Below are positions 15,710-46,887 of a stretch of DNA of 64,000 bases, piece after piece (position 1 is the first letter of the stretch; each line of letters starts with the position of its first letter). The notes under the pieces are model-generated. The model searched no databases. It was not told where the DNA came from and saw nothing but the letters and a program-made list of their open reading frames with translations. Made by a program: the position numbers and the translations under genes. This DNA is from Betaproteobacteria bacterium. Lineage in GTDB: Bacteria; Pseudomonadota; Gammaproteobacteria; Burkholderiales; Rhodocyclaceae. The stretch covers positions 218,470-282,469 of the forward strand of contig WRIU01000002.1 of assembly GCA_009782565.1 (NCBI GenBank), given 5' to 3'.

Positions 15710-17030
15710 TTCGTGCGGTGACGGGGAAGGCCCGGCGACGCTGTCCGGCTGGCTCGAATTGCTTGAGGCGCGGCATGGCGCGTCCATTTGCCTCGGCCTG
15801 GAACGTGTCTCGGAAGTGCTTGCCGTGCTGGGTTCCAGTTCCAGCGCGCTCGTGATTGCCGTAGGCGGCACAAACGGCAAAGGCTCGATCTGCGCCATGC
15901 TCGAAGCCATTCTGTGTGCCGAAGGCTATCGCGTTGGGCGCTATACCTCGCCCCATCTGCTGCGCTACAACGAGCGGGTGCACATCGAAGGCGTCGAGGT
16001 CGGCGACGAAGTGCTGGCGGCTGCTTTTGCCGATGTTGAAACGGCGCGCGGCAATGTGCCGCTGACCTATTTTGAGCATGGTACGCTGGCGGCTTGGCAG
16101 GTGTTCTGCGCGGCGCGGCTCGATGTCATCATCCTCGAAGTTGGCTTGGGTGGACGGCTCGATGCGGTCAACGCTGTTGATGCCGATTGCGCCATCGTCT
16201 CCGGGGTAGCGATGGATCACATGGATTATCTCGGCGATACGCGCGAGGCCATCGGTTTTGAGAAAGCAGGCATTTTCCGTGCTGGATGCCCGGCAATCTG
16301 CGGCGACCCGGAGCCGCCGCAAAGCCTTATCGAACACGCGCGGGCGATTGGCGCGGAGCTTTGGGTTTGCGGGCGCGATTTCGGTTTCAAGGGCGGGCAT
16401 CAGCAATGGAGCTACTGGCGTAACGAAATGCCGTGCTCCGCGCGCCGCGAAGCCCGGATCAATCGCGGCGGGCTGGCCTACCCGGCCCTGCGCGGCGCAA
16501 ACCAGCTTTTCAACGCGGCTTCGGTGATGGCCGCGCTTGATGCCTTGCGCTCACGCATCCCGGTATCCATGCAGGCGATTCGGCAGGGTTTGATGCGGGT
16601 CGAACTGCCGGGGCGTTTCCAGGTGTTGCCGGGGCAACCCCTGGTGGTGCTCGACGTGGCTCATAATCCGCAGGCGGTGGAAGTTCTGGCTGAAAATCTC
16701 GATGGGCTTGGATTTGCCCCCGAAACCTGGGCGGTATTCGGCATGCTTGCCGACAAGGACGTGGAGGGCGTCGCGGAGCGCATGAGCGCGCGTGTCGACC
16801 ATTGGTTGCCCTGTAGCCTGTCCGGCCACAGGGGGCTGGATTCCGAGACGTTGACGGGGCGCTTGCGTGCAGCAGGGGTGGAGAGGCGCAAAATTGCGGA
16901 AGGCTTTGCGACGCCTGCCGAAGCATTCGCGCAAGCGCGGGAACACGCAGCCGCAAATGATAGAATCGTGGTGTTCGGTTCCTTCCTGACCGTGGCGGAT
17001 GTACTGGCGGCAATTCAAGATCGCCGCTGA
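15702..17030 (+). CDS. folC: Dihydrofolate synthase / folylpolyglutamate synthase
   Basis: [43 protein letters not shown]. Confidence 0.94.
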
Positions 17031-17058
17031 CGCGCGATGTACCAATAAGGGGTTCAAG

Positions 17059-17781
17059 GTGAGTGATTTTCCGGCAAGCGACGCAGACGACCTCGAAATC
17101 AAGAAACGGGCGCGCCGCCGCCTCGTAGGGGCGACAGTTCTGGCGCTGCTGGCGGTGGTTGTGTTGCCGCTGGCGATCAGGGACGGCGAAGCGCCGCGCA
17201 CTGTGCCTGACATGCAGGTTTCCATTCCTGAGCGGGATGAGCTTGAATTGCCTCCGCCCGTGCCTGAGGACGATTTTGAATCCGCCAGGGTCGTCATTGA
17301 ACCGGATGCCGTTTCGGGCGAGCCCGGATTCCCCGTCGAAATGCCTCCCTCCTTGCCAGAGCCGCCTTCTCCGCCATCGGCGTCCCTGCCGCCGGAGCAG
17401 CGCGCTCCTACTCCGCCCGTCCAATCATCCGGAGAACATCGGCCTCCGCCATCCCGTCCGGGCACCATCGAAAAGGAAACCGAGGCTGCGCGGGCGCTTG
17501 CCTTGCTCAATGACTCTTCTCCCGCAAAGGAAACTGAAACAGGCGGAAAAGCGGGCAAGAAGGTACAGGGGCAGGTCTTCGTCCAGGTTGCTTCCTTCGG
17601 TAAAGCGGACAGAGCCGCCAAGCAGGTGCAAGAACTGAAAAAGCAGGGCTTTGCCGCGTACGCTGAAAAGGCAGGTAAGGTGACGCGGGTTCGTATCGGC
17701 CCGTTGCCCCGGAGCGAAGGGGAACAGGCCGTGGCGCGCCTGAAGGCTCAGGGTCATAACGCGATGTTGTCATTGCGCTGA
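17059..17781 (+). CDS. dedD: SPOR-domain protein (DedD-like), GTG start
   Basis: N-terminal TM (RRRLVGATVLALLAVVVLPLAI), Pro-rich linker, C-terminal SPOR domain VQVASFGKADRAAKQVQELKKQGFAAY...RVRIGPL. Confidence 0.8.
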   Translation: MSDFPASDADDLEIKKRARRRLVGATVLALLAVVVLPLAIRDGEAPRTVPDMQVSIPERDELELPPPVPEDDFESARVVIEPDAVSGEPGFPVEMPPSLPEPPSPPSASLPPEQRAPTPPVQSSGEHRPPPSRPGTIEKETEAARALALLNDSSPAKETETGGKAGKKVQGQVFVQVASFGKADRAAKQVQELKKQGFAAYAEKAGKVTRVRIGPLPRSEGEQAVARLKAQGHNAMLSLR

Positions 17782-17811
17782 ACATTGGACATTTAACGCC
17801 GAGTTTCAGCG

Positions 17812-18306
17812 ATGACAGTTTTCGATTACGCGTTCCTGTCTATTCTCGGACTGTCGGCCACGCTGGGATTATGGCGGGGGCTGACAAGCGAGGTTCTAGG
17901 GCTGGCAGGTTTGGTTCTGGCCTTGGTTACGGCAACCCATTATGCCGATGTTGCGGCGCACCAGTTTGAAAACATGATCGACGACCCGCGTGCTCGCGTG
18001 GCTGCGGCATTCGCGCTGATTCTTTTCGCCGTATTGTTGGTGGTGTCGCTGGCAAAACTTTTTTTGCGGCGTCTGCTGTGCACAGTAGGATTGGGCGCGA
18101 CAGACAGGTTTTTTGGAGCTGTGTTCGGCATTGTCCGGGGCCTGATGATCGTTTTGATCGTGGTCTGGGTTGGCGGCCTGATCGGCATGTCGCGTGAACC
18201 GTGGTGGGAGCGGGCACTGTTCGCGCCGCTGCTGGAAAAAGCGGTGAGCAGGATCGAACCGTGGCTGCCGGACATTGATTCGGCAGTCGATGACATTCTC
18301 AAATAG
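17812..18306 (+). CDS. cvpA: CvpA family colicin V production protein
   Basis: Four-TM CvpA pattern ([30 protein letters not shown]); located directly upstream of purF. Confidence 0.92.
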
Positions 18307-18317
18307 GGTGGTATTTC

Positions 18318-19856
18318 ATGTGCGGGATTCTCGGAGTCGTAGCGGCCTCTCCAGTCAACCAGTTGCTCTATGATGGGTTGCTGGTATTGCAACATCGCGG
18401 GCAGGACGCGGCGGGTATCGCCACTGCGGAGGGTAACCGTTTTTTCATGCACAAGGCATCCGGCTTGGTGCGTGATGTCTTTCGCACCCGCAACATGCGT
18501 AACCTCGTTGGTAACTGGGGAATTGGGCATGTGCGTTACCCCACGGCGGGTTCGGCGTTCAATGTTGCCGAGGCGCAGCCTTTCTACGTCAATTCGCCTT
18601 TCGGGCTGCTTCTGGCGCATAACGGGAACCTGACCAATTCGGAGGCGCTCAAGCGCGAGATATTTCTCTCTGACCGCCGCCACATCAACACCAATTCCGA
18701 TTCCGAAGTGCTGCTCAACGTGCTGGCGCATGAGATGGAAGACGCGGCAGGTGGCCCCAGGCTCGATGAGGCGGCGATATTCCGCGCCGTAGTGGGCGTG
18801 TACCGGCGTTGCCGGGGCGCTTACGCGGCTGTGGCGATGATTGCAGGTTATGGGTTGCTGGCTTTTCGTGACCCGTATGGCATTCGCCCCTTGGTGATCG
18901 GCAAGAAAGAATTGCCGGACGGCACGGTCGAATGGTTGGTCGCTTCCGAATCCGTCGCGCTCGATACCTTAGGGTTCAGGCTCTTGCGTGACCTTGCGCC
19001 GGGCGAGGCAGTGCTGATCGACACGGAAGGTAATTTCCGCAGCCGCGTGTGCGCGGCAAGAACCGTAGACGCGCCGTGCATGTTCGAATACGTCTATCTC
19101 GCGAGACCCGATTCCATCATGGATGGCGTATCGGTGTATGAAGCGCGCCTCAAGATGGGGGAATTCCTTGCCGAGAAAATGAAGCGCACCATGCCGCATG
19201 CGGGCATTGATGTCGTGATTCCAATTCCTGATTCAAGCCGCCCTTCGGCGCAGGAAATGGCGTTGCGGCTGGGGCTGCCGTATCGCGAAGGCTTCGTCAA
19301 AAACCGCTACATTGGCCGGACTTTCATCATGCCAGGACAGTCCTTGCGAAAGAAATCCGTGCGCCAGAAGCTCAACACCATTCATCAGGAATTCAAAGGC
19401 AAGAGCGTACTGCTGGTCGACGATTCCATCGTGCGCGGTACGACCAGCAAGGAAATCATCAATATGGCACGCGAGGCGGGTGCGGCCAGGGTGTACATAG
19501 CTTCCGCCGCGCCGCCGGTGCGTCACGCGAATGTTTACGGCATCGACATGCCGACGCGCATTGAGCTCATTGCGAATGACCGTACCGAAGACGAGATTCG
19601 CCGTGAGATAGGTGCGGACGGCCTGCTTTACCAGGATCTCGATGATCTCAAGGCATCCGTGCGTGCGATCAACCCTGTGATTCAGTTTTTCGAGACTTCC
19701 TGTTTCGATGGCGACTACATCACTGGCGACATTACTCCCGAGTATCTTTCCGGGGTCGAAAACCAGGACAGCAGCCAGGATTTCGGTATGGCGACCGATA
19801 TTTTTGGTGACGGTGGCCAACTCGGCCTCAATCTGATCGACCAGGAAGACCGCTAA
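18318..19856 (+). CDS. purF: Amidophosphoribosyltransferase
   Basis: MCGILGVV N-terminal nucleophile Cys; [19 protein letters not shown] motif. Confidence 0.98.
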
Positions 19857-23144: not shown

Positions 23145-23855
23145 TCAATCCTTATGTCTGACAATTACGCGCTGATAAACGCCGCCAAAAAATGTTTTTT
23201 TCTCCCAGACATATTTATGGGCGTCACTTGCGTAATGGCTGATTTCATTTTTCCATAATGCTTCGGCAAATGGTTCGAGTAAATGATTGACGATTTTAAG
23301 AATATAACGAATTGGCTGCCATTTGGCCGGATTTGCATAATCGACGAAAATGGCTTTTCCATTTTTTGGTAACTTTTTTAGTATGTGATCAACAATCTGA
23401 TATTTTTTATCGTCGGGGACTTCATGCAAAAGAAAGAAACTGCATATCACATCATAGTCGATGTCCCCTTCACCGGTAAAATCGGCTGCGTCGCAGCGAA
23501 CCACCTTACACCAAGGTTTATCGGCTAATTTACGCTCTGCGTGTTCGATTTGTATTGGTGTGATGTCGGTCAGGTGGAATGCGCCTTGCGGCCCGATTTT
23601 TTCTGCGACACGTTTGACCAGGTCACCGTAAACATGTGCAACCTGCCAAACACGCATCCCTTCCTTAATTTCATTCAGGTACGCGCGCATCAGTCTTTGG
23701 TCGTTGAAAAACAATAAAACACGGACGACTATATTATGATCCAGCAGACGTACTTTCTCTGGATTAACGTATGCCCATTCGTACACTTCAGTCATGTACG
23801 CAGGAAGGTTTTCGTAATATGGGTCAGATGCCGTCAAAGTATTGTTTTGTTCCAT
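23145..23855 (-). CDS. rquA: RquA-like rhodoquinone biosynthesis enzyme (class I SAM-dependent methyltransferase fold)
   Basis: YEWAYVNP, degenerate SAM motif I WQVAHVYGDL, DITPIQIEHAERKL, SFFLLHEVPDDKK, IFVDYANPAKWQPIRY, LEPFAEALWKNEIS, KKTFFGGVYQRVIVR; these match the RquA motif layout recalled from Rhodospirillum rubrum. Confidence 0.75.
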   Translation of the reverse strand: MEQNNTLTASDPYYENLPAYMTEVYEWAYVNPEKVRLLDHNIVVRVLLFFNDQRLMRAYLNEIKEGMRVWQVAHVYGDLVKRVAEKIGPQGAFHLTDITPIQIEHAERKLADKPWCKVVRCDAADFTGEGDIDYDVICSFFLLHEVPDDKKYQIVDHILKKLPKNGKAIFVDYANPAKWQPIRYILKIVNHLLEPFAEALWKNEISHYASDAHKYVWEKKTFFGGVYQRVIVRHKD

Positions 23856-24118
23856 GATGGAAGAAAAACGTAAAAAACGAAAAGAGAAATTTATAGATTA
23901 CAGATAAATTATAAATGCACTGCAACATTAATGCAATACTTTTAAGTAAATTTTGAAATCTTAATATTGATTATTGCTTTTTTGGCGGATACGGTATAAG
24001 CGATGCGCCATAAGGAAATATGTTGTTACCATTAAAAAAATATGCTTTTTTTATAATTTTGTTCTGTCTCCCGTTCTGCGGTAAAATCCAAAACCCGCTC
24101 CGCTGGAATGGAACCGCC

Positions 24119-25000
24119 ATGAGTATTGTTGCCCGCCTGCCTCATTACGCCCATTTGATTCGCGTCGATTCGCTCGGCAAGCAAGTGGGTACGATGTTGT
24201 TACTCTGGCCGACGATGTGGGGGCTGTGGATTGCTGCCGAAGGCTCACCCCCCCTGTATATGGTGTTGATTTTTGCGCTCGGCAGTTTCTTGATGCACTC
24301 TGCCGGGTGTGTCGTCAATGACTACGCGGATCGGGAGTTCGACGGGCATGTGGAGCGAACGCGGGATCGCCCTCTCGTCACGGGAGCCATCAGCGTGCGT
24401 GAGGCGTTTTGGTTTGGTTTGGGACTGTTGTTCCTTTCCTTTTTGTTGATCCTGCCGCTCCAGAATATCCGTGTGTTCCTGATAGCGTTGCTGGCGCTGT
24501 TCCTGGCGGTGAGCTATCCCTTTACGAAGCGGTTTCTCCCCGTGCCGCAAGCCTACCTGGGGGTGGCGTTCGGATTCGGCATTCCGATGAGTTTTGCCGC
24601 CGTGCAGAACACTGTGCCGCCGATGGCCTGGTTGCTGGTGGTGGCAAACCTCTTTTGGGTGATTTCCTACGATACGTCGTATGCGATGGTGGATCGCAAC
24701 GACGACATCAAATTGGGCCGCATCCGTACTTCGGCCATTACGTTTGGCCGTTACGAGGTCGCGATAGTGATGCTGTGCTATGCGGTCTCTTTGTCCCTGA
24801 TTACCGTGGTGGGGTTGGCGTTCGGGCGAGGGTGGGTTTTTATCGCCGGGATGGGGGTGGCCGCGCTGGTGGCGGGGCGTGTGTTTCTGCTCATCCGCAC
24901 ACGCGAGCGCGCGGCCTGCTGGCGCGCCTTCATAGACAACAACTGGGTGGGTGCGTCGGTTTTCGCCGGATTCGCGTTGGATTATCTCGTGCGGGTTTGA
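24119..25000 (+). CDS. ubiA: 4-hydroxybenzoate octaprenyltransferase
   Basis: [69 protein letters not shown]. Confidence 0.96.
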
Positions 25001-38055: not shown

Positions 38056-38787
38056 ATGGCACAGATATCTCCTACCTTCAGTCCGCTTTATCAGCAGATC
38101 AAAGGGTTGATCTTGCAGGCGCTCGAATCCGGGGAATGGCGTCCGGGGCAGGTCATTCCCAGTGAGCAGGAGTTGGCCGCGCGCTTCAACGTCTCGCAGG
38201 GGACGGTACGCAAGGCTATCGACGAGATGGCGGCGGAAAACATCCTGGTTCGCAGGCAGGGTCGGGGTACTTACGTGGCCTCGCACACTGACCCTCGGCA
38301 GATGTTCCGTTTTTTGCGGTTGCTTCCTGAAAGCGGGGAATTGCTTACCCATCCGAAGAGCATTCCCGTCGACTGCTGGCGCGCCAAGGCCGGACAGGAA
38401 GCAGCTCGCATACTGTCCATCGAGCAGGGTGCGCCGATCATCATCGTGCGCCGGGTACTGCAATTCGGGCATAAACCCATCGTGGCCGATGAAATCTATC
38501 TGCCAGAGGAACTCTACCAGGGCTTGAACATGGAGATGCTGCAAGCCTGGAGCAGTTCGCTGTACTCGCTGTTCGAGACGCGCTTCGGGCTCCGCATGAT
38601 CCGCGCCCAGGAGCGCATCCGTGCCGTAGCCGCCGACCGTGCAGCGGCTGAGTTGCTCCAGGTGAAGGAGGGCATGCCATTGCTGTCAGTCGAGCGGGTA
38701 ACCTACACTTATGGGGATAAACCGGTGGAATGGCGGCGGGGGGTGTATTCTACGAGCGAGTACTACTATCTAAACGATCTCGCTTAA
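38056..38787 (+). CDS. GntR family transcriptional regulator (HutC/UTRA type)
   Basis: PLYQQIKGLILQALESGEWRPGQVIPSEQELAARFNVSQGTVRKAIDEMAAENILVRRQGRGTYV; UTRA C-terminus; divergent from mdh, upstream of sdhC. Confidence 0.92.
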   Translation: MAQISPTFSPLYQQIKGLILQALESGEWRPGQVIPSEQELAARFNVSQGTVRKAIDEMAAENILVRRQGRGTYVASHTDPRQMFRFLRLLPESGELLTHPKSIPVDCWRAKAGQEAARILSIEQGAPIIIVRRVLQFGHKPIVADEIYLPEELYQGLNMEMLQAWSSSLYSLFETRFGLRMIRAQERIRAVAADRAAAELLQVKEGMPLLSVERVTYTYGDKPVEWRRGVYSTSEYYYLNDLA

Positions 38788-38861
38788 CGTTTTATCCTAT
38801 TCTGATGGGTTTAACGGGGTTTCCGTTATTTTTGTTTCGTTTTTTCGTGGGGAGAGGCTTC

Positions 38862-39248
38862 ATGACTGAAGCAACTGTACGTGAAAGGCCAAAACATCTG
38901 GCTATCTGGCAGATACATTTTCCGCTTCCGGCGATTGTATCCATTTTGCATCGGATTAGCGGAGCGGGGCTTTTCCTGTTCTTACCGTTTCTGATCTGTC
39001 TGCTCGACAAGAGCCTGCTCAGTTCCGATTCGTTCGAGGGGTTCAGGGCGGTCATTGCCCATCCGCTGGCGAAACTCGTCCTGCTGGGTCTGTTGTGGGC
39101 GTACCTGCACCACTTCTGTGCCGGTATTCGCTACCTGTTCCTCGATATTGACAAAGGACTGGATTTGCCGTGCGCGCGCAAGTCCGCAGTGGCTGTCGTG
39201 ATTGTGAGTTTGTCGCTGACTGTCGTGATCGGAGGGGTATTATGGTGA
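38862..39248 (+). CDS. sdhC: Succinate dehydrogenase cytochrome b556 subunit
   Basis: RPKHLAIWQIHFPLPAIVSILHRISGAGLFLFLPF; HHFCAGIRYLFLD. Confidence 0.95.
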   Translation: MTEATVRERPKHLAIWQIHFPLPAIVSILHRISGAGLFLFLPFLICLLDKSLLSSDSFEGFRAVIAHPLAKLVLLGLLWAYLHHFCAGIRYLFLDIDKGLDLPCARKSAVAVVIVSLSLTVVIGGVLW

Positions 39249-39598
39249 AACGTCTCGCTATAGGCGCGCATTACGGCCTGAAAGATTGGCTCATACAGCG
39301 TGTGACCGCCATTTATATGGCGCTCTTTACGCTCGTTTTTGCCGCTTTGCTCCTCTTTTGCTTGCCTGAGTTCAGCTATGAGGCGTGGTCGGGGCTGTTC
39401 TCGTCGACGAGCGTCAAGTTCTTCTCCTTCCTGTTTATTGTGTCGCTTTGCTATCACGCCTGGATTGGCGTGCGCGATATTTGGATGGATTATGTCAAAC
39501 ATGCCGGGTTGCGGCTGGCACTGCACCTGGTTGTCCTTTTCCTGCTCGTCGGTTATGTCGGATGGGCCGTGCGGATTCTCTGGAGGTTGTCAGCGTGA
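39242..39598 (+). CDS. sdhD: Succinate dehydrogenase membrane anchor subunit
   Basis: [38 protein letters not shown]. Confidence 0.95.
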
Positions 39599-41391
39599 AC
39601 GTCGCAAAACGTACTTTCGATGCGGTTATCGTCGGCGCGGGTGGCGCCGGTTTGCGCGCCGCGCTGCAACTTTCCGAGGCGGGCCTGAGAACCGCTGTGC
39701 TCTCCAAGGTGTTTCCAACCCGCTCGCACACCGTCGCCGCGCAGGGTGGGGTAGCAGCCTCTTTGGGCAATACCACCGAGGATCACTGGCACTGGCATAT
39801 GTACGACACTGTCAAGGGGTCGGACTGGCTCGGCGATCAGGACGCCATTGAGTTCATGTGCAAGAAGGCCAACGAGGTCGTCATCGAGCTTGAACACTAT
39901 GGGATGCCGTTCGACCGTACCGACAACGGCAAGATTTATCAACGCCCGTTCGGCGGGCATTCCATGAATTACGGCAAGTCCCCGGTAATGCGCTCCTGCG
40001 CGGCGGCTGACCGTACCGGGCATGCCATGCTGCACGCGCTCTATCAGCGCAACGTGCGCGCGCACACGCAATTTTTCGTCGAATGGATGGCGCTCGACCT
40101 CATCCGGGATGCCGAAGGCAATGTGCTCGGCGTGACTGCGCTCGAACTGGAAACTGGGGAAGTGTCGATTTTCCACTCCAGGGCGACGGTTTTTGCCACG
40201 GGAGGTTCGGGCCGGATTTTCTATTCCTCGACCAACGCCTTTACCAATACCGGCGATGGCCTGGGCATGGCGGCGCGCGCGGGTCTTCCGCTCGAAGATA
40301 TGGAATTCTGGCAATTCCACCCCACCGGCGTGGCCGGGGCGGGCGTACTGATTACCGAGGGCGTGCGCGGCGAGGGCGGTATTCTTCGCAATGCGGGCGG
40401 TGAGCGTTTCATGGAACGCTACGCGCCGAACCTTAAAGATTTGGCATCGCGCGACGTGGTATCGCGTTCAATGGTGACGGAGATCAATGAAGGGCGCGGC
40501 TGTGGGCACGACAAGGATTACGTGCTGCTCGACATCACGCACTTATCGCCTGAGATCATCATGAAGCGTCTGCCGGGCATCCGCGAGATTTCAATCCGCT
40601 TCGCGGGGGTCGATCCGATCAAGGCCCCGATCCCCGTAGTGCCGACTTGCCACTACCAGATGGGCGGGATTCCGACCAACTTCAAGGGGCAGGTGGTGCA
40701 TCCGAGGCACGGCAATCCGGGTACGCCCGTGCATGGTTTCTATGCGGCGGGCGAGTGCGCCTGTGCCTCGGTGCATGGCGCGAACCGCCTCGGAACGAAT
40801 TCCCTGCTCGATCTTCTGGTGTTCGGCAAGTCGGCGGGCGAATCCGTGGTCGCGGACTTCAAGGCCGGTGATCTCGATCTCAAGCCTTTGCCTGATGATG
40901 CTGCCGATAGGTCGCTCGCCCGGCTTGCCCGGCTGGAATCGCAGAAGAAAGATGGCAACGCGGTTCACGATGTGCGGCTGGCCATGCAGCGCACCATGCA
41001 GAAACACGCCGGGGTGTTCCGTTTCAAGGATTTGCTCAAGGAAGGCGTGACCGCTATTTTGGAAGTGGCCGAAAGCGCGAAGAGCACCTACATCAACGAC
41101 AAGTCCAAGGTCTGGAATACTGCACGTCAGGACGCCCTGGAACTGGACAACATGATCGAAGTTGCCAAGGCGACGATGATCTCCGCCGAGGCGCGCAAGG
41201 AATCGCGTGGCGCGCACGTCCGGGACGACGCACCGGATACTCCGGAGCATCCGAACGGCCGCGACGACCAGAACTGGCTCAAGCATACCCTGTGGTTCAG
41301 CGCGGATAACCACCTGGAATACAAGCCGGTGCACCTGAAGCCCTTGTCCGATGATGTCGAGCCGATTGCGCTCGCCAAGCGGACGTACTGA
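39595..41391 (+). CDS. sdhA: Succinate dehydrogenase flavoprotein subunit (GTG start)
   Basis: [66 protein letters not shown]. Confidence 0.98.
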
Positions 41392-41416
41392 GCCTGAACG
41401 CTGGAGAGAAACACAA

Positions 41417-42133
41417 ATGCAAATGAGTAAACGCACCGTTCAATTCAAGATATACCGTTACGACCCTGACAAGGACGACAAGCCCACCATGCAGGATATT
41501 TCGGTGGAACTCGACCCGACCGACAAGAAACTGCTCGATGCCCTGGTGAAGCTCAAGGCCAAGGACGATAGCTTGTCGTTCCGCCGTTCGTGCCGCGAGG
41601 GAGTGTGCGGGTCGGACGCGGTCAACATCAATGGTGTCAACGCCTTGGCATGCTTGACCGATGTCGACAGCCTTTCTCAACCCATTGTGCTGAGGCCCTT
41701 GCCGGGGTTGCCGGTGATCCGCGACCTGATCGTGGACATGACCCAGTTCTTCAAGCAATACCACTCGATCAAGCCCTACCTCATCAACGACGAACCTCCG
41801 CCCGAGCGCGAGCGCCTGCAAAGCCCGGAGGAACGTGAGGAACTCAATGGGCTGTACGAGTGTATCCTGTGTGCATGCTGTTCGACGGCTTGTCCATCGT
41901 TCTGGTGGAATCCGGACAAATTCGTCGGCCCTTCGGGATTGCTGAACGCTTATCGCTTCATTGCCGATACGCGCGATCAGGCTACCAACGAACGGCTGGA
42001 CGATCTCGAAGACCCGTACCGGCTGTTCCGCTGCCACACGATCATGAACTGCGTCGCCGTCTGTCCGAAGAGTTTGAATCCAACCAGGGCCATCAACAAG
42101 ATCAAGGACATGATGGTCGTTCGGGCGATTTGA
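41417..42133 (+). CDS. sdhB: Succinate dehydrogenase iron-sulfur subunit
   Basis: SFRRSCREGVCGSDAVNINGVNALAC; YECILCACCSTACPSFWWN; CHTIMNCVAVCPKSLNPTRAI. Confidence 0.98.
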   Translation: MQMSKRTVQFKIYRYDPDKDDKPTMQDISVELDPTDKKLLDALVKLKAKDDSLSFRRSCREGVCGSDAVNINGVNALACLTDVDSLSQPIVLRPLPGLPVIRDLIVDMTQFFKQYHSIKPYLINDEPPPERERLQSPEEREELNGLYECILCACCSTACPSFWWNPDKFVGPSGLLNAYRFIADTRDQATNERLDDLEDPYRLFRCHTIMNCVAVCPKSLNPTRAINKIKDMMVVRAI

Positions 42134-42136
42134 GCG

Positions 42137-42373
42137 ATGACGATCAACCGGGGAAAAGTGCGCTGGCAGTGCCGCAGGTCTTTACTTGAACTCGACCTGG
42201 TGCTGGCGCGTTTCTTGGAAAAGGAGTTTGAACATCTCAATGACGATCAAGTGGCCGATTTTGAAGATATGCTGCGTTGCGACGACTACGACCTGTGGGC
42301 GTTCATCAACGGGAGCAAACCTTGTGAGGTTGCCCGCTGGCAAAAAATGATCGAGCGATTGAGGCAGTGCTGA
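42137..42373 (+). CDS. sdhE: FAD assembly factor SdhE (succinate dehydrogenase flavinylation)
   Basis: RWQCRRSLLELDLVLARFLEKEF...LNDDQVADFEDMLRCDDYDLWAFINGSKP; position between sdhB and gltA. Confidence 0.93.
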   Translation: MTINRGKVRWQCRRSLLELDLVLARFLEKEFEHLNDDQVADFEDMLRCDDYDLWAFINGSKPCEVARWQKMIERLRQC

Positions 42374-42463
42374 AACGATAAAGTCTCCCGGCTGTCCCAT
42401 TGCCAGGAGCATTTGGACTTCCAAGCCATCCAGGGGCATCAACAACACAAGGAGGAGGACCCC

Positions 42464-43756
42464 ATGAGCGAAGAACGTAAGGCAAGTTTGACTATTGATG
42501 GTAAAACCAACGACTTCCCGATAATGAAAGGCACACACGGGAACGATGTCATCGATATTCGTACACTAGGCGCCAAGACCGGACATTTCACCTATGACTC
42601 CGGTTTCTTGTCGACCGCCAGCTGCCAATCCACCATCACCTTCATCGACGGCGACAAGGGCGAACTGCTGTATCGCGGCTACCCCATTGAGCAACTGGCC
42701 GAAAAATGCAACTTCCTGGAAGTTGCCTATCTGCTGCGTAACGGCGAACTGCCGGATGCTGCTGAGAAAGCCGACTTTGAAGGCATCATCCGCCGCCACA
42801 CCCTGGTACATGATCAGTTAACCCGGTTCTACAACGGTTTTCGGCGTGACGCCCACCCGATGGCGGTCATCGTCGGCGTGGTTGGCGCGCTATCGGCGTT
42901 CTATCACCGGGGCATGGACTATTCCCGGCTTGAGGATCGTGACGTTTGCTTTCACCGCATCATCGCCAAGCTGCCGACCATCGTGGCGCTGGCCTATCGT
43001 TATACCACCGGCCTACCGTTCATGTACCCCAGGAACGACCTCGATTACGCCTCGAACTTCATGTACATGATGTTTGGCGTCCCCTGCGAGGAGTACAAGG
43101 CCAACCCGGTGCTGTCGCGCGCGCTCGACATCATCTTCACCCTGCATGCCGACCACGAACAGAATGCCTCCACTTCCACGGTGCGCCTGGCCGGTTCTTC
43201 CGGGGCTAACCCCTTTGCCTGCGTCGCGGCGGGTATTTCCTGCCTGTGGGGTCCGGCGCACGGGGGCGCGAATGAGGCATGCCTGGAGATGCTGGAAGAA
43301 ATCGGCGATGTTTCCAGGGTGGGCGAGTACATCAATCGTGCCAAGGACAAGAACGACAGTTTCAAACTGATGGGCTTCGGCCACCGCGTCTACAAGAACT
43401 TCGACCCGCGTGCCAAGCTCATGGGCAAGGTATGCGCCGAAGTGCTTGCCGAACTGGGGCTCGAAAACGACCGCTTGTTCAAGCTCGCCCAAAAGCTCGA
43501 AAAGATTGCCCTCGAAGACGAATACTTCATCGAGAAGAAGCTCTACCCGAACGTGGACTTCTACTCCGGCATCGTCCAAAAGGCATTGGGCGTTCCCACC
43601 ACCATGTTCACCTGTATCTTTGCCCTGGCGCGCACGGCGGGTTGGCTGGCTCAATGGGAAGAGATGATTACCGACCCGGAATACAAAATCGGGCGTCCCC
43701 GTCAACTTTATGTTGGCGCGGCCCGACGCGACGTTCCGGACATCGGCAAGCGTTGA
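42464..43756 (+). CDS. gltA: Citrate synthase
   Basis: [65 protein letters not shown]. Confidence 0.98.
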
Positions 43757-44031
43757 TTGAAAACAGGCGCGGGGGGCGAGTCCTCCCGTGCCGCCCGACC
43801 GCTGTCCGGATCGGGTCGAACATGAGCCAAACGCAATCCTCGTAATGAGGGGCAGGGTGGTTCAGACATACGGGTGGGATGCGCTTGCAGACTTGTTGAC
43901 GCGGGGCGGGCCGACAAGGCCGTTCCATTTTTTTCCGACAGGCTTGGCGTAAGCATATCTCTTATATAAAAATACAAGCATGGCATCGTCGGGGCGGCGG
44001 CTGTGCCTGGAACATGACAGGTGGTTTCAAA

Positions 44032-46887
44032 ATGAGAGAAAAGGAACTTCAAGGCACGTCCTATCTGTTTGGTTCAAACGCGCCTTTCATTGAAGAGCTT
44101 TACGAAAGTTATCTCGCTGACCCTGCTTCGGTCGATGAACGCTGGCGCGTGTATTTCGACCAACTCCAGGCACAGGCGGGCGCGGCAGTGCGGGATGTGG
44201 CTCACGGCCCGATCATCACTGCCTTCGAGCAGTTGGCCAAGCGTGGCCCAGTGCGGACGGCGAGTTCAGAAGGCGAGGACAAATTGCAGGCTGACGTCCT
44301 GCAACTGATTGCCGCCCATCGCTATCTTGGCAACCGCCGCGCCAGCCTCGACCCGCTCAAGCGTGGCGACCGGCCCCAGATCGGCGAACTCGAACCCTCG
44401 CATTACGGGTTCACCGAGGCCGATCTGTCCAAGACCTTCAACGTCGGCAACTTCAAGGGCGTTTCAGGGGATCGAGCGACCCTGCGCGATATTATCGAAG
44501 CCCTGCGCCAGACCTACTGTGGCAACATCGGCGTCGAATATCAGCATATTTCCGACACGGCTGAACGGCGCTGGATACAGGGGCGACTGGAAAGCGCTCG
44601 CGCCACGCCGGATTTCACACCGACCGAGAAACGTCACATCCTGGGGCGCGTGACCGCTGCCGAAACCCTCGAACGCTACCTGCACACCCGCTACGTCGGG
44701 CAGAAACGCTTTTCACTCGAAGGTGGTGAATCGACCATCGTCGCAATGGACGAACTCGTGCGTGTTGCGGGCAAGCTGGGTGTGACGGAAACCGTGCTCG
44801 GCATGGCGCACCGTGGCCGGCTCAACGTCCTGGTCAACGTCCTGGGTAAATCGCCTTCCATGCTCTTCTCCGAATTTGAAGGCAAGGTCAAAGCCGACCT
44901 CTCCGCAGGCGATGTCAAATACCACATGGGTTTTTCCAGCAATATCATGACCCCTGGCGGGCCGATGCACCTGGTGCTGGCCTTTAACCCTTCGCACCTG
45001 GAAATCATCAACCCGGTTGTGGAAGGCTCCGTTTACGCGCGTCAGATTCGGCGCGGCGGGGAAGACGCCAAGAGTCAGGTTCTTCCCGTTCTGATCCACG
45101 GCGATGCTGCCGTAGCCGGGCAGGGCGTCAACCAGGAAATGCTCAACTTCTCCCAGACCCGGGGTTACGGTACGGGCGGAACCATCCATCTGGTCGTCAA
45201 CAACCAGATCGGTTTTACCACGTCCAACCCGCTCGATTTGCGCTCCTCTCTTTACTGCACCGACATTTTCAAAGTGGTCGAAGCCCCGATTTTCCACGTC
45301 AACGGCGACGACCCGGAGGCCGTGGCCTTCGTTACCCGGCTGGCCGTCGAATTCCGCCAGGAATTCAAGAAGGACGTGGCAGTCGACATTTTCTGCTTCC
45401 GCAAGCTCGGCCACAACGAGCAGGATGAACCGATGGTCACGCAGCCGTTGATGTATCAGATCATCCAGCAGCATCCTGGTACGCGTAAACTCTACTCCGA
45501 CCGCCTGGTGGCTGAAGGCACGATTGCCGCCGATGAACCCGACAAGATGATCGCCGAATATCGCGAGCATCTCGACCGGGGCGAGTTGCTCTACAACCCG
45601 GTGCTTTCCGGCTACAGGCGTCATTTTTCGGCGGACTGGACTCCTTTCCTCAAACAGTCCTACACGGACGACGCCCATACCGCGATTCCCGCACAGGAAG
45701 TCCGCCGTCTCGCGCAAGCACTGACCACGATTCCGGAAGGCTTCGCGCTCCACTCCCGCGTACAGAAAGTCATCGACGACCGCGCCGCGATGGGGCGGGG
45801 CGAACTGCCAATCGACTGGGGTATGGGAGAGAATCTTGCCTACGCCAGCCTGCTTGCCCAGGGATTTGGTGTGCGTATTTCAGGTGAAGACGTTGGCCGG
45901 GGCACCTTTTTCCATCGCCATGCCAAGCTGCACGACCAGAAACGCAAGCAGCGCGCAGAGGGCGTTTTCATGCCGCTGGCTCACATCCAGGAAGGGCAGG
46001 CCCGTTTCCAGTGCTTCGATTCGGTGCTCTCCGAAGAAGGCGTCCTAGCCTTTGAATACGGCTACGCGACCACTGAGCCGAACGAACTCGTCGTCTGGGA
46101 AGCCCAGTTTGGCGACTTCGTCAACGGCGCACAGGTCGTCATCGACCAGTTCATCTCCTCGGGCGAAGCAAAATGGGGGCGCATCACCGGGCTGACCCTG
46201 CTCCTGCCGCATGGTTACGAAGGGCAAGGCCCCGAACACACCTCTTCGCGGCTGGAACGCTTCATGAACCTGGCGGCGGAAAACAACTGGCAGGTTTGCG
46301 TCCCGTCCACCCCCGCGCAAGTCTTCCACCTCTTGCGTCGGCAGATGCTACGCAAGCTGCGGAAACCCCTGGTCGTCATTACGCCGAAATCTCTGCTGCG
46401 TCACAAGGAAGTGGTATCGAGCATCGAAGAGCTCGCCACCGGTCAATTCCAGACTGTGATTCCCGAAGTCGAGCCGCTCGATCGCAAGAAAGTCAAGCGC
46501 ATCGTGCTGTGCCAGGGCAAGCTCTACTACGAATTGCTCGCTTATCGACGGGAACAGAAAATCACCAATACCGCGCTGATTCGCCTCGAACAGCTCTATC
46601 CCTTCCCGGTTCAGGCATTTGCCGCAGCGATCGAGCAGTTCCCCAACGCGAAGGAAGTCATCTGGTGCCAGGAAGAGTCGCGCAATCAAGGTGCCTGGTA
46701 TTGGCTGGCGTCCAGGCAACACCTGATAAACGTCCTCGGTACGCGCCGTGAACTGCTACTGGTCAGCCGTCCAGCTTCTGCTTCGCCAGCCGTGGGCTAC
46801 CATGCCAGGCATGTGCAGCAGCAAAAGGACATCATTGAACACGCGTTTGGGCCGATCCAGAATACGACTCCGCAGTCGCCCAACTAA
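44032..46887 (+). CDS. sucA: 2-oxoglutarate dehydrogenase E1 component
   Basis: [54 protein letters not shown]; start 44014 also possible. Confidence 0.97.

Follow-up and report, generated by a model that had tools for sequence, protein, structure and literature searches.

Quinol:fumarate reductases of the Wolinella type are known with menaquinol. The use of S-adenosylmethionine (SAM) as amino donor has been established for R. rubrum RquA (Rru_A3227), in which Asp118 contacts the SAM ribose and Asp143 lies near the adenine, and a double alanine mutant at these two positions makes no rhodoquinone (RQ; PMC9814641). Stairs et al. (PMC5953543) found rquA to be generally unlinked to candidate quinone biosynthesis genes and noted that 12 bacteria with rquA carry a second frd/sdh operon. 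RquA co-occurs with the oxygen-independent ubiquinone (UQ) pathway in 73 of 84 genomes and with menaquinone in 5 of 84, and a low-potential quinone pathway was invariably present in genomes having only the oxygen-independent UQ pathway (PMC11707229).

Here we describe an rquA gene in a window of 64,000 nucleotides, the whole stretch of DNA analyzed, from a genome of 2.27 Mb (99% complete) that belongs to a Rhodocyclales genus with metagenome-assembled genomes (MAGs) from higher-termite hindguts. The altered motif I and both SAM-pocket aspartates of R. rubrum RquA and of the family model NF038261 are likewise found here; in distinction from the R. rubrum system, the window protein lies in a Rhodocyclales branch and its gene has ubiA as its divergently oriented neighbor (Table 1).

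Table 1. Positions of rquA, its key residues, its neighbors and the respiratory and quinone genes discussed in the text (window positions unless a locus is named)
Feature	Position	Strand	Assignment and evidence
rquA	23145..23855	-	rhodoquinone biosynthesis, predicted amino transfer from ubiquinone to rhodoquinone; NF038261 297.5 bits, cut-off 175
Altered SAM motif I, WQVAHVYGDL, residues 70-79	23619..23648	-	Q71, A73, V75, Y76 and G77 invariant in 47 RquA
Asp97	23565..23567	-	corresponds in spacing to Asp118 of R. rubrum, which contacts the SAM ribose (PMC9814641); invariant 47/47
Asp122	23490..23492	-	corresponds in spacing to Asp143 of R. rubrum, which lies near the adenine of SAM (PMC9814641); invariant 47/47
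AT-rich gap separating the divergent genes rquA and ubiA	23856..24119		264 bp for a ubiA start at 24120
ubiA	24020..25000 (start probably 24120 by homology)	+	4-hydroxybenzoate polyprenyltransferase; TIGR01474 298.8 bits, cut-off 275.45
sdhC	38730..39248	+	succinate dehydrogenase cytochrome b556 subunit; TIGR02970 121.7 bits, cut-off 52.3
sdhA	39385..41391 (domain starts near 39619)	+	flavoprotein ORF; TIGR01816 930 bits, cut-off 727
sdhB	41351..42133	+	iron-sulfur subunit; NF004616 369.5 bits, cut-off 228
Citrate synthase, in sdh cluster	42413..43756	+	PF00285
sucA	44014..46887	+	2-oxoglutarate dehydrogenase E1; PF02779, PF16870, PF00676
FrdCAB	L065:4781-8459 (own contig C12)		second complex II
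UbiV-UbiT fusion	L066:7891-9396 (own contig C13, about 16890-18395)		501 aa

Identity of the RquA protein

The sequence-only reading had proposed a candidate RquA; the coordinates and strand that it gave for the open reading frame, which encodes 236 aa from ATG to stop, are right to the base, and every peptide that it quoted is present. The RquA equivalog NF038261 (NCBIfam) covers the protein over model positions 1 to 217 of 218 with a score far above its cut-off, and the UbiE models fall far below theirs, the best being NF001240 at 31.4 bits for a cut-off of 378. When UbiE of the same genome is taken as outgroup of a tree, the protein groups inside the RquA set and UbiE far outside it, the outgroup being a single sequence on a very long branch and the root serving for drawing only. 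The replacement of the Gly-rich motif I claimed for this protein falls where Class I methyltransferases carry that motif. Among 47 aligned RquA sequences (the window protein and 46 from fetched loci, a few of which are the same genome in two collections), 38 columns are invariant, including His144 and Glu145, and the RquA-diagnostic residues at motif I and at the two aspartates are retained in all 47; a second alignment comprised 21 sequences. Asp97 and Asp122 were matched to their R. rubrum counterparts by the 25-residue spacing and the position of the motif, without aligning the R. rubrum sequence. By analogy with R. rubrum, SAM would be the amino donor here also, as the earlier reading had supposed.

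We considered whether the product might be a Class I methyltransferase, UbiE/UbiG-like or other, whose motif I has degenerated and which only looks like RquA. UbiE models and generic methyltransferase domains give weak matches that point that way, as does a fold search with an AlphaFold model (methyltransferase-type core, moderate pLDDT of 68.7), which returned generic methyltransferases; the fold matches are too weak for an argument about the active site, and we found no solved structure close in sequence to this RquA. However, the score of 297.5 bits to the RquA equivalog stands against 31.4 to UbiE, the genome already holds a separate, complete UbiE (414.6 bits), and motif I has kept its RquA form, and we regard this alternative as highly improbable. 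The curated model, the alignment and the tree bear out the assignment as RquA: the protein is an ordinary member of the known family, and from its sequence the product is almost certainly a genuine RquA.

Distribution and history of rquA

The gene is also present in another MAG at 92% identity, which, like the model scores, speaks against a chance resemblance, and the closest RquA proteins, 92 to 74% identical, come from the MAGs Nt197, Th196, Emb289 and Lab288 and two 'Azoarcus sp.' MAGs. The four named MAGs derive from Neocapritermes taracua, Termes hospes, Embiratermes neotenicus and Labiotermes labralis, higher termites that were sampled by gut compartment (PMC7024585). Given these origins of its relatives, the window's own genome probably comes from a termite gut as well. 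Next in similarity are proteins of Propionivibrio and Accumulibacter (69-72% identity), that of Propionivibrio soli SG131 being 72% identical. In the RquA tree, the window protein pairs with the Neocapritermes MAG (97/89) and then with the Termes MAG (91/77); deeper forks are without resolution. The patchy distribution ascribed to rquA holds in this family, in which 81 of 250 genomes pass the NF038261 cut-off, compared with 0 of 14 control genomes. Within the genus, the gene is found in four of eight genomes (G000, G054, G198 and G238). It is not found in G107, G143, G174 and G219, which are drafts, 95-98% complete, so that a single absence is no proof; here and below, gene absences rest on family profile searches.

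Could rquA have been acquired horizontally by the clade, from an AT-rich donor, instead of by descent within the Rhodocyclales? Its G+C content is 0.41-0.46 throughout the termite clade, compared with 0.52-0.58 in the flanks, and it is absent from four genus mates whose ubiA has different neighbors. However, the nearest relatives of this RquA are all Rhodocyclales (Propionivibrio, Accumulibacter), in which the G+C content of rquA is close to that of its own flanks; the shared site in six related genomes speaks against a very recent arrival; loss in the other genus mates would fit equally; and the deeper branches of the tree lack resolution. We consider transfer somewhat unlikely. A search of plasmids for RquA found none. 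In the window itself, positions 23145-24019 (rquA and the gap) have a G+C content near 0.40-0.45, with 0.52-0.62 on both sides; the dip at rquA is present in all termite-clade copies and is small in Propionivibrio.

The rquA-ubiA gene pair

The order glnA, a DUF4124 gene, rquA, divergent ubiA, pyrF and ponA is kept, contigs permitting, in six related genomes (L003, L004, L005, L006, L007 and G238, with G198 an apparent duplicate of L005). In genus mates without rquA, the neighbors of ubiA differ, being riboflavin genes and nusB in G143 and recG in G107 and G174. As Stairs et al. (PMC5953543) saw no general linkage, the pairing of rquA with ubiA is a local feature, and it suggests shared regulation. 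The gap between the two genes is poorly conserved and contains no FNR box within 1 mismatch; a promoter and terminator scan gave a result about equal to that of shuffles. In a more distant Rhodocyclales MAG (L018), a gene for a Crp/FNR-family regulator (L018:1223-2002) lies 38 bp upstream of rquA; close to its N-terminus the regulator has a cluster of cysteines resembling that of FNR.

Ubiquinone synthesis

Contig C13 of the same genome encodes UbiU (540 bits) and a protein in which UbiV (375 bits) and UbiT (108 bits) are fused, all over cut-off, with an ABC1-kinase (UbiB-like) gene nearby. By its gene content, oxygen-independent UQ synthesis is present in this genome, without a full-length UbiH/UbiI/UbiF-family hydroxylase: a profile search with PF01494, which we take to be the flavin monooxygenase family that includes hydroxylases of these types, returned just Gly-rich fragments of 29-38 positions, three of the four being identified as D-amino acid dehydrogenase, HpnE and SdhA. 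UbiN is distantly homologous to flavin monooxygenases (PMC10626278). Within the genus, only G107, G174 and G219, none of which has rquA, yielded a UbiH/UbiF-family hydroxylase over cut-off; in the other genus mates, the best PF01494 matches are halogenase-like or FixC-like (G054, G143 and G198) or span 187 profile positions (G238). G143 (L098, L096) has UbiV-UbiT and the fumarate reductase, and neither rquA nor an identified oxygen-dependent UQ hydroxylase.

UbiV and UbiT share one open frame in seven of the eight genus genomes; in G107 a stop separates the two neighboring frames, which share the same phase, and in all seven genomes examined outside the genus the genes are separate. A limited literature search found no earlier report of this fusion. 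Zymomonas mobilis likewise has a fusion among the three oxygen-independent UQ proteins, in that case UbiT-UbiU (PMC6747719), whereas here UbiV is joined to UbiT, with UbiV first. RquA in combination with the oxygen-independent UQ pathway only is also seen in Magnetococcus marinus and other Magnetococcia (PMC11707229); unlike them, the present host belongs to another class and has the fused UbiV-UbiT and a Wolinella-type FrdCAB. The genome fits the association of a low-potential quinone with the oxygen-independent UQ pathway (PMC11707229).

Fumarate reductase and electron transport

All three subunits of a Wolinella-type fumarate reductase are encoded here, as in the known enzyme, over curated cut-offs (FrdB 419.5, FrdA 1114 and FrdC 351 bits), and the reductase, recognized by its cytochrome b subunit, is found in all eight genus genomes with or without rquA. 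In contrast with the menaquinol-linked Wolinella enzyme, the candidate donor here is rhodoquinol, a MenD over cut-off being absent. The sdh cluster (38730-46887) lies about 15 kb from rquA, and contig C3 carries a cbb3-type oxidase pair, COX1 and FixO. Contig C1 encodes a MenA-like UbiA-family prenyltransferase (L067:6958-7947) that scores below every MenA cut-off; a radical SAM protein is encoded next to it, its neighbors also include mnmE and a Fic/VbhA-type pair (L067:9130-10943; a VbhA-like antitoxin and a Fic-domain protein with a KfrB domain), and there are no menaquinone genes among them.

We propose a model in which the product of UbiA would be converted to UQ without oxygen by UbiU and UbiV-UbiT. 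RquA, binding SAM and Mn2+ as in R. rubrum, would swap one ring methoxy group of UQ for an amino group derived from SAM, yielding RQ. Rhodoquinol may then act as low-potential electron donor to the Wolinella-type FrdCAB of contig C12, and UQ would serve the succinate dehydrogenase of the window and the cbb3 oxidase at traces of oxygen. The analysis establishes what the gene is, which residues are conserved, its genomic surroundings and the complement of genes described above; from these we infer the enzymatic activity, the presence of RQ and the direction of electron flow. RQ-based fumarate respiration, already suggested from the window alone, would be the natural and simplest reading, strengthened by the presence of FrdCAB and an oxygen-independent UQ pathway in the same genome. 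The electron-transport model as a whole is probable.

Its weak point is that the mates without rquA share the reductase, with G143 also lacking an identified oxygen-dependent hydroxylase. The MenA-like gene on contig C1 and the moderate quality of the structural model also count against it. Given that the reductase is present in eight of eight genus genomes and rquA in just four, the occurrence of the enzyme is not explained by rquA alone. The four mates without rquA have no MenD over cut-off, so that their reductase may use another quinol, and it could be that RQ is made here also but that the reductase works mainly with another quinol, RQ serving other quinone-linked enzymes. Against this, MenD over cut-off was found in none of the eight genus genomes by profile search, and the potential of RQ is suitably low (-63 mV, PMC11707229); we judge this alternative improbable. 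For the lineage, we put forward, tentatively and at slightly below even standing, that these termite-gut Rhodocyclales gave up oxygen-dependent UQ synthesis, rely on UbiU and the fused UbiV-UbiT, and run a menaquinol-type fumarate reductase on rhodoquinol by means of RquA, with rquA and ubiA co-expressed from one divergent promoter region.

Implications

The combination of genes, the UbiV-UbiT fusion and the pairing with ubiA are mildly new. A literature search found no earlier report of RQ in a termite-gut lineage, and the present analysis predicts RQ in such a bacterial lineage. The genus is a small natural test set, whose closely related members can be compared both for the loss of oxygen-dependent UQ synthesis and for whether they carry rquA. 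The question of whether a low-potential quinone and fumarate reductase are gained together is raised in PMC11707229; the occurrence of the reductase throughout the genus, and of rquA in only part of it, bears on this order of events.
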